Shown here: in pieces, positions 10,185 through 14,231 of the stretch
How the letters are laid out: every line of letters begins with the position of its first letter
How positions within the stretch are numbered: the first letter of the stretch is position 1
Assembly (NCBI GenBank): GCA_913054055.1
Contig: CAJXIT010000003.1
Span: forward strand, 1-34,274
Source of the DNA: an uncultured Thalassolituus sp.
Lineage (GTDB): Bacteria; Pseudomonadota; Gammaproteobacteria; Pseudomonadales; Oceanobacteraceae
Direction: 5' to 3'
DNA: 34,274 nucleotides
Made by a program: the position numbers and the translations under genes
Notes under the pieces: generated by a model
The model's database searches: none
Seen by the model: only the letters and a program-made list of their open reading frames with translations
What the model was told of the DNA's origin: nothing

Positions 10185-10985
10185 TTAACGCCCCCCTTTC
10201 GTTAAATGTGTATTGTCTAGATTCACAGATAGTGGCAGCTCTAATAATTCAGGGGCCGCTTTTTTAGAGGCGATGCGCATGGCTTTTCGAATATTTAATT
10301 GATATTGATTATCGAGCACTTGCCAACCTTCTTGCGCTTGATTCCAAGTGGCACTGATCTGTGCATCCATCGTCTGAAAATATAAATTGCTTCTACCGAT
10401 CCTTAAAACCTGTACCGATAACGTTTCATCATTAACCACAACATTATCTCGATATACTTCTAAGTCGTAGTTGTAATCATTTTCTGCTTGATACATTTCC
10501 ATCACACGGCGATATTTTTCAGAAATTGACACTGAACTTGACGCCAATAATTGTGTGAGTTTATCCACGGCGGTTAATCGCTGCTGTTTACGAAATGGCA
10601 AATCCAATTTTATAAATTGCTCTAAGGTACTGACCATTTTACGTAATAAAGGTAAAAGCTGCTGCTTGGTAATAATGATGTCTTTGATTTGCTGCTCAAG
10701 GCTCGCCATTTCAACACGTTGCTCCCCTTGCAAAGTGCGTAGCTCTTCGTTGTATGACTTTTGATATTCAGACTTTTTCAATAAGGCTTGATATTGATCC
10801 AATAGCTGATCGGTTTCACTGGCCAATTGATTGACCTTAGCCTGACTTGACCGCCCTAAATTTAGAGTTTGCTCGGTATGATTCAAACTGTCGTTTAAGG
10901 TGTCTTTTGACTGTGCTAGCTGTGCATTAACCGGAAGGGCTAAAAAGAGAATCGCTAGCCGGATGATTATTTTTATACGCAACAT
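10185..10985 (-). CDS. DUF3450-family periplasmic coiled-coil protein, operon 1
   Basis: Signal peptide from ATG 10985 (MLRIKIIIRLAILFLALPVNA; track start 11030 is an alternative). 'LLRKMVSTLEQFIKLDLPFRKQQRLTAVDKLTQLLASSSVSISEKYRRVMEMYQAENDY...VLRIGRSNLYFQTMD' is the DUF3450 signature. Confidence 0.88.
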   Translation of the reverse strand: MLRIKIIIRLAILFLALPVNAQLAQSKDTLNDSLNHTEQTLNLGRSSQAKVNQLASETDQLLDQYQALLKKSEYQKSYNEELRTLQGEQRVEMASLEQQIKDIIITKQQLLPLLRKMVSTLEQFIKLDLPFRKQQRLTAVDKLTQLLASSSVSISEKYRRVMEMYQAENDYNYDLEVYRDNVVVNDETLSVQVLRIGRSNLYFQTMDAQISATWNQAQEGWQVLDNQYQLNIRKAMRIASKKAAPELLELPLSVNLDNTHLTKGGR

Positions 10986-11164
10986 AGATATATTTAACCT
11001 AGAAATAAAACCACTATATCCATCAATCATGACATAAAGCTGAACGATTAGTAAATGTCAGGCAATAACAGTTTAAGTGGCGATATTTCAGGTGAAACAC
11101 ATCAAAGAAGACACTGCCCACTGGCTTTAAAAGACAGAGGGCAGGCATTTGAGACTAACGAAAG

Positions 11165-12430
11165 TTAGGCACGTCTTTTTCTGAAGGCATAAATACCTGC
11201 ATTTAAAAGGGTACCAAAGAAAACACCCCATTCACTTAAGTTTGGCTTTGGCTTTTTACCATTTGCCATACGCGCTAACTGGGCTTCGTACCAAGTGATA
11301 TCTAACATGGCCATTTTATCAATGGCTGGCTTGCCAGTGGTTAATTTCTTCAGTTGTTGCTGATGGTTTTCATCGGCAATTAATTTATTTGGAAAGTCAG
11401 GATCCACCGCTGTTGTGCGGGCAATGCCAATGAAATCGGTTGCGCCAGTATCCAATGCTGCTTGCATGGCTTTGGATGATCTAAAGCCTCCGGTTACCAC
11501 CAGTGGCGTATCCACCAGCGCACGTACTTTCTCAGCATACTCAAGGAAGTAAGCTTCACGCGCTATGGTGGATTTTTTCGCATCACTGCCCATCATAGAT
11601 GGGTTTTCATAAGTACCACCTGAAATTTCAATCAGGTCAATGCCCACATCGGCTAATGTTTTTACCACTTGCATGGAATCTTCTTCGGTAAAACCCCCTT
11701 TCATAAAATCAGCCGAGTTTAATTTAATACCAATTGGGAAATCTTCACCCACTTCTTTACGAATAGCATGATAAATAGACAGAACAAAACGCATGCGGTT
11801 TTCTAATGACCCACCCCACTGATCATCTCGCTGATTATGACGAGGCGATAAAAACTGGCTTACCAAGTAACCATGGGCGCCGTGAATTTGAACACCGGTG
11901 AACCCTGCTTGCTTAGACAATTTTGCAGCCGTGGCAAATTTTTGAATAATGACCAGAATTTCGTCTTCAGTCAGGGCACGAGGTTTATTAAACCCTTTCT
12001 CTAAACCACGGGTTAAAGCAATGGCTGAAGGTGCCACCGGCACATCCACAATAAAGTTAGGAATTTGCTTACCCGGATGATTTAACTGAGGCCAAATATG
12101 CGAGCCATTTTTCTTACCTGCCTGAGCCCAGTTTTTAAATTCGGTTAAATCACTTTTTTCATCTAGTACAACATTTTTAGGTTCGCCCAGTGCGCCGCGA
12201 TCAACCATCACGTTACCTGTCATTGACAAGCCAATGCCACCCTCAGCCCAGCGACCATACAGTTTGGCTAAACCTGGCTTAGGGTCATGGGCTTTGGTCC
12301 CTAATTGCTCACTCATGGCTGACTTAAACAATCGATTCTTGATGGTCTGGCCATTTTTAAGAGTAAAACTGGTGCCTAATTTGGCGGTGTTTTTATTGTC
12401 TACAGCACTGGCTGCGGCTTGCTCTGTCAT
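11165..12430 (-). CDS. NADH:flavin oxidoreductase, Old Yellow Enzyme family
   Basis: 'FTLKNGQTIKNRLFKSAMSEQLG...GLSMTGNVMVDRGA...GFTGVQIHGAHGYLVSQFLSPRHNQRDDQWGGSLENRMRF...PLVVTGGFRSSKAMQAALDTGATDFIGIAR'. The ATG at 12430 is preceded by GGAG; track start 12451 is an alternative. Confidence 0.93.
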   Translation of the reverse strand: MTEQAAASAVDNKNTAKLGTSFTLKNGQTIKNRLFKSAMSEQLGTKAHDPKPGLAKLYGRWAEGGIGLSMTGNVMVDRGALGEPKNVVLDEKSDLTEFKNWAQAGKKNGSHIWPQLNHPGKQIPNFIVDVPVAPSAIALTRGLEKGFNKPRALTEDEILVIIQKFATAAKLSKQAGFTGVQIHGAHGYLVSQFLSPRHNQRDDQWGGSLENRMRFVLSIYHAIRKEVGEDFPIGIKLNSADFMKGGFTEEDSMQVVKTLADVGIDLIEISGGTYENPSMMGSDAKKSTIAREAYFLEYAEKVRALVDTPLVVTGGFRSSKAMQAALDTGATDFIGIARTTAVDPDFPNKLIADENHQQQLKKLTTGKPAIDKMAMLDITWYEAQLARMANGKKPKPNLSEWGVFFGTLLNAGIYAFRKRRA

Positions 12431-12454
12431 CTTATTCTCCATTATGGCCATTTA

Positions 12455-12467
12455 GACCGATCGTCTT
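12455..12467. promoter_or_regulatory. candidate TetR operator, site 1: GACCGATCGTCTT
   Basis: Identical 13-mer to site 2 before the TetR gene; AGAC-CGATC-GTCT imperfect palindrome. Upstream of the OYE gene. Confidence 0.6.
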
Positions 12468-12527
12468 TTAATTAGGTAAAATAAAACCCACATTCGGGTT
12501 AAAACTTCAGTTTGCTTGGTTAAACAG

Positions 12528-13139
12528 TCATTCAGATTGTGGTTTCAGCAGCCAATCCAGCATTAATTCCATGATTCGTTGCGCAGGTTTGATATTGGCA
12601 GACATTTTCATTTTAATCAGCGCCCCTTCCCAAGTGGCCCAATAGACACCGGCTATTGAACTGGCGTTTAAATCATTTCTGATTTCACCAGACTGCTGGC
12701 CTTTCTCAAATACTTGAGTAAAAAAGTCATGTCACTGCTGAGCAGCCCGATCCAATTGCACCCTGCACATATGGCTTTCAGCGGAAATTTCAGCCGCCAT
12801 ACTGCCCACTAAACACGACTTTTTAAATTCTGCATCGGCGTAGCGCTGTAAGCTGTATTGGTAAATGGCCCTTAACTGTTCAGCGGGGGTTAAATGCTTG
12901 CCTTCGCCTTCTATATACTCTCGAATCTGACCTAATAAATCTTGGTTATAGTGGCCAATTAACTCGGCTACAAACGCCTCTTTGCTGGCAAAGAAGTTGT
13001 AAAAGGAGCCTTTTGGCACATTCACTTGATCCAGAATCTGCTTGATACCGGTACCGTGATAGCCATGTATGGATAGCTGCTCAATGCCTTCTTGAATCAA
13101 GGCTTCTCTGATGTGCTCACTGCGTCTTGGTCTGTTCAT
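12528..13139 (-). pseudogene. TetR/AcrR-family regulator interrupted by in-frame TGA
   Basis: N-terminal HTH 'RSEHIREALIQEGIEQLSIHGYHGTGIKQILDQVNVPKGSFYNFFASKEAFVAEL'. Frame stops at TGA 12732-12734, then continues open for 67 codons: HDFFTQVFEKGQQSGEIRNDLNASSIAGVYWATWEGALIKMKMSANIKPAQRIMELMLDWLLKPQSE*, a normal TetR C-terminus. Confidence 0.85.
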
Positions 13140-13152
13140 ACTATTACTTTAT

Positions 13153-13165
13153 GACCGATCGTCTT
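13153..13165. promoter_or_regulatory. candidate TetR operator, site 2: GACCGATCGTCTT
   Basis: 14 bp upstream of the TetR start codon; exact match to site 1. Confidence 0.6.
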
Positions 13166-13279: not shown

Positions 13280-14167
13280 CTATGAATTACTTGGCATTGA
13301 GCCCTGAGCACCGTCCGCAGCTTCCTGCCTGTTTTGATTCACTATGCGCCTAAATTCGTCTTTATAACCGGGTAGTTCAGTGCCCAGGATGCGATCCCAC
13401 CAGGTGAAATACAGACCGTAATTCCCTTTTACCTTCTGGTGATGCATATCGTGATGGGTGGTGGTGGTAAAAACATCTAACGGGCTATCCACCCATTTAT
13501 GATGATGAAACTCAATTCCTGAATGGCCCTGAGCATTACGGAAGATTTGAATCGCAACAAACGTAAACAATACCGAGCCATGGATAGGTATGGCCCATAA
13601 CATAAATGGCACAAACGCCGACATGACAAACGCTTCACCTGGGCCAAAACTGTATGCTGCCCAAGGGGTAGGAGTGCGCGAGAGATGATGTATTTTATGA
13701 AACCATTTGAATAGCTTTGGGTGATGCATACTGCGGTGTGCAAAATAAAAGTAAGTATCGTGTAACAGCAATAACAAAGGCAAAGAAAGCAACGTATACG
13801 CCCAGCCATGGTCTTCGACATTCTCGTAAATTTTTAAATAACCATGAGACATGGCATAGATAACGAACACAGCCACAAAGCCGTAAATACTGGTGGTTAA
13901 TAGTGAAAAGAACACTTCTCGACGGATGTCCGCTTTGCTGGCTGCGCGGGTTTGAATTTTTCGAGACTGCGACCAAGCATTTAAAAACTTGTACAAGACT
14001 AAACTGGTTACCGTAGCAGCAATCAGATACCGCATGGTATCCAAAGTGAACACTGCAAACCAAACATTCAGTTGAAGCATCAGGTATTCGATACCTTGTA
14101 GCTCATATAAATTCGGATCAATCCCCATAGCTTTAGCCTTATTTTTATAATCCAAGAAAAACATCAA
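13280..14167 (-). CDS. sterol desaturase / fatty acid hydroxylase superfamily membrane protein
   Basis: His-box motifs HDTYFYFAHRSMHH, HKIHH, HHHKW and HHDMHH, with multiple TM segments. Confidence 0.92.
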   Translation of the reverse strand: MMFFLDYKNKAKAMGIDPNLYELQGIEYLMLQLNVWFAVFTLDTMRYLIAATVTSLVLYKFLNAWSQSRKIQTRAASKADIRREVFFSLLTTSIYGFVAVFVIYAMSHGYLKIYENVEDHGWAYTLLSLPLLLLLHDTYFYFAHRSMHHPKLFKWFHKIHHLSRTPTPWAAYSFGPGEAFVMSAFVPFMLWAIPIHGSVLFTFVAIQIFRNAQGHSGIEFHHHKWVDSPLDVFTTTTHHDMHHQKVKGNYGLYFTWWDRILGTELPGYKDEFRRIVNQNRQEAADGAQGSMPSNS

Positions 14168-14219
14168 ACCCAGATTACCAGCTAAGTATGGTGAAACAAG
14201 GACACTTCATGCCCTTTAT

Positions 14220-14231
14220 GATTGATCGTCC
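14220..14231. promoter_or_regulatory. degenerate copy of TetR operator motif: GATTGATCGTCC
   Basis: 9/12 match to GACCGATCGTCT, about 53 bp upstream of the hydroxylase ORF start. Confidence 0.35.

Follow-up and report, generated by a model that had tools for sequence, protein, structure and literature searches.

A lone in-frame TGA in a NemR-like tetR gene beside an Old Yellow Enzyme gene: a probable consensus base error in a draft assembly of Thalassolituus sp.

The window (the whole stretch of DNA analysed, 34,274 nucleotides) carries a TetR-family (NemR-like) gene at 13139-12528 on the minus strand, whose translation contains one internal in-frame TGA (12732-12734, codon 136). This stop is preceded by 135 residues, ending in VQLDRAAQQ, and followed by 67 open codons, which extend to a TGA at 12528-12530. 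An Old Yellow Enzyme (OYE) gene lies 3' of tetR on the same strand, and two putative operators (AAGACGATCGGTC-ATA/-TAA) flank tetR. The following features were identified in this region:

12528-13139, minus strand: TetR-family (NemR-like) repressor gene, interrupted (translation, Pfam, AlphaFold2, Foldseek); the range includes the internal stop
12732-12734, minus strand: in-frame TGA at codon 136, where the seven nearest homologues have TGG (Trp)
12531-12731, minus strand: the 67 post-stop codons, covering the C-terminal half of the long helix 123-149 and helices 159-180 and 183-197, with Lys178; the expected dimer/ligand half
12813-12815, minus strand: codon of Cys109, aligned with the redox Cys106 of NemR and nearly invariant among homologues
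11165-12451, minus strand: OYE gene (Oxidored_FMN, NemA-like), intact, the presumed target (Pfam, neighbourhood)
13150-13165, minus strand: putative operator 1, AAGACGATCGGTCATA, intact, just upstream of tetR and conserved
12452-12467, minus strand: putative operator 2, AAGACGATCGGTCTAA, intact, just upstream of the OYE gene
12485-12500, minus strand: terminator-like hairpin (AACCCGAATGTGGGTT, followed by TTATTTT) separating tetR from the OYE gene; a comparable hairpin is seen by eye in some relatives
13280-14167, minus strand: gene of the fatty-acid-hydroxylase superfamily (Pfam), upstream of tetR, possibly co-regulated
14214-14230, minus strand: third, weaker operator-like site, GACGATCAATCATAAAG, which lies upstream of the fatty-acid-hydroxylase-like gene and departs from operator 1 at 2 of 17 positions

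Analysis of the translated frame placed a TetR_N helix-turn-helix domain (PF00440; 37-38 bits against a cut-off of 24) at the N-terminus and a TetR_C_13 domain (PF16925) across the stop, the latter scoring 63.7 bits in the joined frame, 21 bits before the stop and 31.7 bits after it. The codon usage of the post-stop part is as gene-like as that of the pre-stop part (log-odds per codon of 0.157 and 0.117, respectively), all five remaining reading frames give negative values, and the chance of an open frame of 67 codons alone is about 2%. Since both halves match one TetR_C_13 model and the codon usage is gene-like, the open frame beyond the stop is more than chance. Translation, the domain model and codon usage thus bear out the preliminary description of the locus, which had reported this stop and, behind it, 67 open codons of a TetR C-terminal domain. 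A restart of translation 3' of the stop was considered and rejected: the ATG codons available in this frame fall far inside the C-terminal helices, where a new start could not restore a repressor. No second intact tetR paralogue was found in the genome at E <= 0.001.

The read-through frame was modelled with AlphaFold2 (pLDDT 92.3), and Foldseek matched the model to 3bru, PA2196 (4l62) and NemR (4yze). An all-helical C-terminal ligand/dimer domain is found in the read-through frame only, the 135-residue product being without its end. In the model, codon 136 lies inside helix 123-149, so truncation drops half of this helix together with helices 159-180 and 183-197, and with them Lys178. The C-terminal end of TetR proteins is the part that forms the dimer, and we infer from the family that the window repressor is a DNA-binding homodimer; judging by the model, the 135-residue product should therefore not be able to repress.

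The neighbourhood of the gene is conserved. An OYE gene adjoins the tetR homologue in about 25 distinct loci, and across the closest ~20 relatives the OYE partner is 69-90% identical. Both operators, or near variants of them, were found in nearly all close relatives; the operator at the tetR locus of the window may also be written AAGACGAYCGGTCWWA. In the genome of the window, operators 1 and 2 are the only exact matches. When one mismatch was allowed in eight relatives, all operator matches fell at tetR-OYE loci, two per locus, and exact sites were confined to such loci in all nine genomes searched. The proposed tetR-OYE link has thereby gained support from both neighbourhood and operators. 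The confinement of the operators to tetR-OYE loci and the hairpin between the two genes argue for a repressor dedicated to its own promoter and that of the OYE gene. Relative G005 carries two tetR-OYE loci (C279 and C592), each with both operators, i.e., four sites in total. As for the third operator-like site (chance expectation about 0.005, an estimate), the fatty-acid-hydroxylase-like gene downstream of it has no match in the other genomes of the genus examined at E <= 1e-40 and may have joined the tetR regulon.

A set of about 90 distinct homologues was assembled from searches of relatives and of GTDB contigs. Codon 136 is TGG (Trp) in all seven nearest homologues (65-71% identity; Oleispira, Bermanella and Thalassolituus), and the rest of the close group has mostly Trp or Cys at this place, with Leu in one 60% relative. 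On the tree the window branch is surrounded by Trp-bearing branches, which indicates that Trp is ancestral at codon 136; the change from TGG to TGA, until now only supposed, agrees with this comparison. Proteins ending at the same point were also looked for, and a stop at codon 136 is absent from all ~90 homologues. A distant clade (Thalassomonas, Marinomonas and Shewanella; homologues L041 and L043-L046) has Cys (TGC/TGT) in place of Trp, which is possibly an extra redox residue.

The age of the stop was approached through the constraint on the codons behind it. For residues 61-135 the tip branch of the window sequence accounts for 3.0% of total tree length; for the post-stop part the figure is 2.4%, and all seven post-stop columns that are invariant among 19 relatives are kept in the window sequence. 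The post-stop part is without sign of relaxed constraint, and the stop is therefore either very recent or not real. A long-standing pseudogene was rejected, as the post-stop part shows neither acceleration nor further lesions.

Lone stops of the same kind were then sought in sampled stretches (763 kb) of the same draft assembly (539 contigs, ~95% complete), with the assemblies of two relatives, G007 (400 kb) and G003 (335 kb), serving as controls (735 kb in total). A candidate was a lone in-frame stop that had coding signal to either side and lacked a nearby start; ordinary gene ends were sorted out. Six lone mid-gene stops, including that of tetR, were found in the 763 kb, as against none in the 735 kb of the controls, in samples of modest size and with sorting that was partly visual. 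A stricter scan of the controls gave five candidates in G007 and four in G003, all of which look like a gene end followed by a new gene. The five stops other than that of tetR are (sampled stretch: position):

L137: 14351, minus strand: TAA in clpB, Leu in all 12 ClpB orthologues
L145: 5416, minus strand: TGA in ilvI, Cys in all 12 relatives
L138: 11811, plus strand: TAA in a dihydroorotase gene, Lys in the one relative carrying the gene; found in the looser scan only, failing the stricter filter
L167: 147, minus strand: TAG in a Bat-like VWA gene, near a contig end
L145: 2546, plus strand: TGA in a chemotaxis receptor (MCP) gene, a case rated no higher than probable

In clpB, ilvI, the dihydroorotase gene and the VWA gene, NCBIfam or Pfam models cross the stop. 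All three stop codons (TAA, TAG and TGA) occur, and some of the changes require transversions. The rate of substitution that would yield six nonsense changes is about 2.2e-4 per coding base. No clear excess of frameshift-type errors was seen (two candidates in the own assembly vs. one and none in the controls).

Taken with the locus itself, these data make it probable that the TGA of tetR is a single-base consensus error in the draft assembly. The ilvI gene is the sole acetolactate synthase candidate in the genome; simultaneous loss of this function and of clpB is unlikely in one free-living cell, which leaves a technical cause as the simplest shared explanation, one that also accommodates the tetR stop. 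By the same argument, several of the interrupted genes being important ones, we infer that the other five stops are errors too. Sequencing or assembly error had been one of three options in the preliminary description; now that clpB, the sole ilvI and further genes of the assembly have turned out to carry stops of the same kind, with none in a similar amount of sequence from two relatives, it is the best supported. It is then most likely that codon 136 encodes Trp in the organism itself and that its repressor is full-length and works. Such a protein would repress its own gene and the adjoining OYE gene through the two dedicated operators, and would probably be released when the conserved cysteine meets an electrophile or oxidant.

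The chief rival holds that the sampled strain has only very recently undergone a true TGG-to-TGA nonsense mutation, which would leave the OYE and tetR promoters constitutively on. The TGA is, after all, present in the sequence, and one transition suffices to create it; a TetR repressor is presumably dispensable, and real nonsense mutations do occur in TetR genes. The operators and the OYE gene are intact, and in the model the 135-residue form keeps the helix-turn-helix but loses helices 159-180 and 183-197, half of helix 123-149 and the Lys that partners the sensing Cys. Set against this are the comparable interruptions of clpB, of the sole ilvI and of further conserved genes, which point to a shared technical cause, and the post-stop part, which has not decayed, so that the mutation, if real, must be recent. 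On balance we hold a true mutation to be rather unlikely. Less likely still, by a shade, is the corollary that the lineage has just lost a NemR-like repressor, and that the OYE gene, and perhaps the fatty-acid-hydroxylase-like gene, would be expressed constitutively.

Decoding of UGA (as selenocysteine, by reassignment or through programmed readthrough) would likewise yield a full-length repressor, and some distant homologues do have Cys at codon 136, just as the TGA in ilvI falls at a Cys codon. The near relatives, however, carry Trp rather than Cys, release factor RF2 is present, and the lone stops in other genes include TAA and TAG just as well. The search of the ~95% complete genome for tRNA-Sec gave nothing above the cut-off, its three weak matches being tRNA-Ser and tRNA-Lys, and the RNA 3' of the TGA folds no better than shuffled sequences (z -0.75, for general folding). 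UGA readthrough, another of the options raised earlier, is thereby disfavoured and appears very improbable. Even less credence is due to the view that the 135-residue form is functional in itself, as a shortened repressor or a purpose-made modulator: its helix-turn-helix domain is whole (TetR_N, 38 bits), but no relative ends at codon 136, and the post-stop region is under ordinary constraint, which would be needless if it were untranslated.

Returning to the consensus error as the preferred explanation, the case carries a warning for genome scans: before a lone in-frame stop in a draft assembly is claimed as a sign of a pseudogene or of recoding, it should be weighed against how often stops interrupt the conserved genes of that assembly. 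A further outcome is the description of a small NemR-like/OYE circuit, well conserved and a clean case of a one-target repressor, given that its operators occur nowhere else exactly in the nine genomes searched. Were the stop genuine, the locus would document a fresh loss of ene-reductase control and would catch a marine bacterium, a relative of Bermanella and Oleispira, just after this regulation was lost.

The interruptions resemble consensus base errors of draft and metagenome-assembled genomes in that they are lone stop substitutions in conserved genes, in an assembly of 539 contigs with no clear excess of frameshifts, a resemblance seen at the level of the assembled sequence. A direct measurement of stop-codon errors in metagenome-assembled genomes was not found in the literature.

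Apart from its interruption at codon 136, the window protein has the same domain order and the same fold as the TetR_C_13 repressors PA2196 of Pseudomonas aeruginosa (4l62) and 3bru of Rhodobacter. The closest functional parallel is E. coli NemR-NemA, encoded in the nemRA-gloA operon, in which a TetR-family repressor likewise adjoins an OYE reductase. The fold matches that of NemR (4yze) with a TM-score of up to 0.85 by query length, while the sequence identity is distant (~24%). The redox residues of NemR are Cys106 and its partner Lys175 (PMC7464077), with which Cys109 and Lys178 of the window protein align; among 38 homologues the conservation of Cys109 is 90% or higher, and some distant homologues have Arg instead of Lys178. 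The electrophile-responsive Cys21 and Cys116 of NemR have no counterparts, there being no Cys at the aligned places and the only cysteines of the window protein being 109 and 125. In further contrast to nemRA-gloA, the ORF that follows the OYE gene (10185-11030) does not look like gloA, and the window has a second operator directly 5' of the OYE gene; the operator sequence of NemR itself was not found in the literature. On these sequence features, the locus is a NemR-type circuit, a name that refers to its predicted working and claims no strict membership of NemR.
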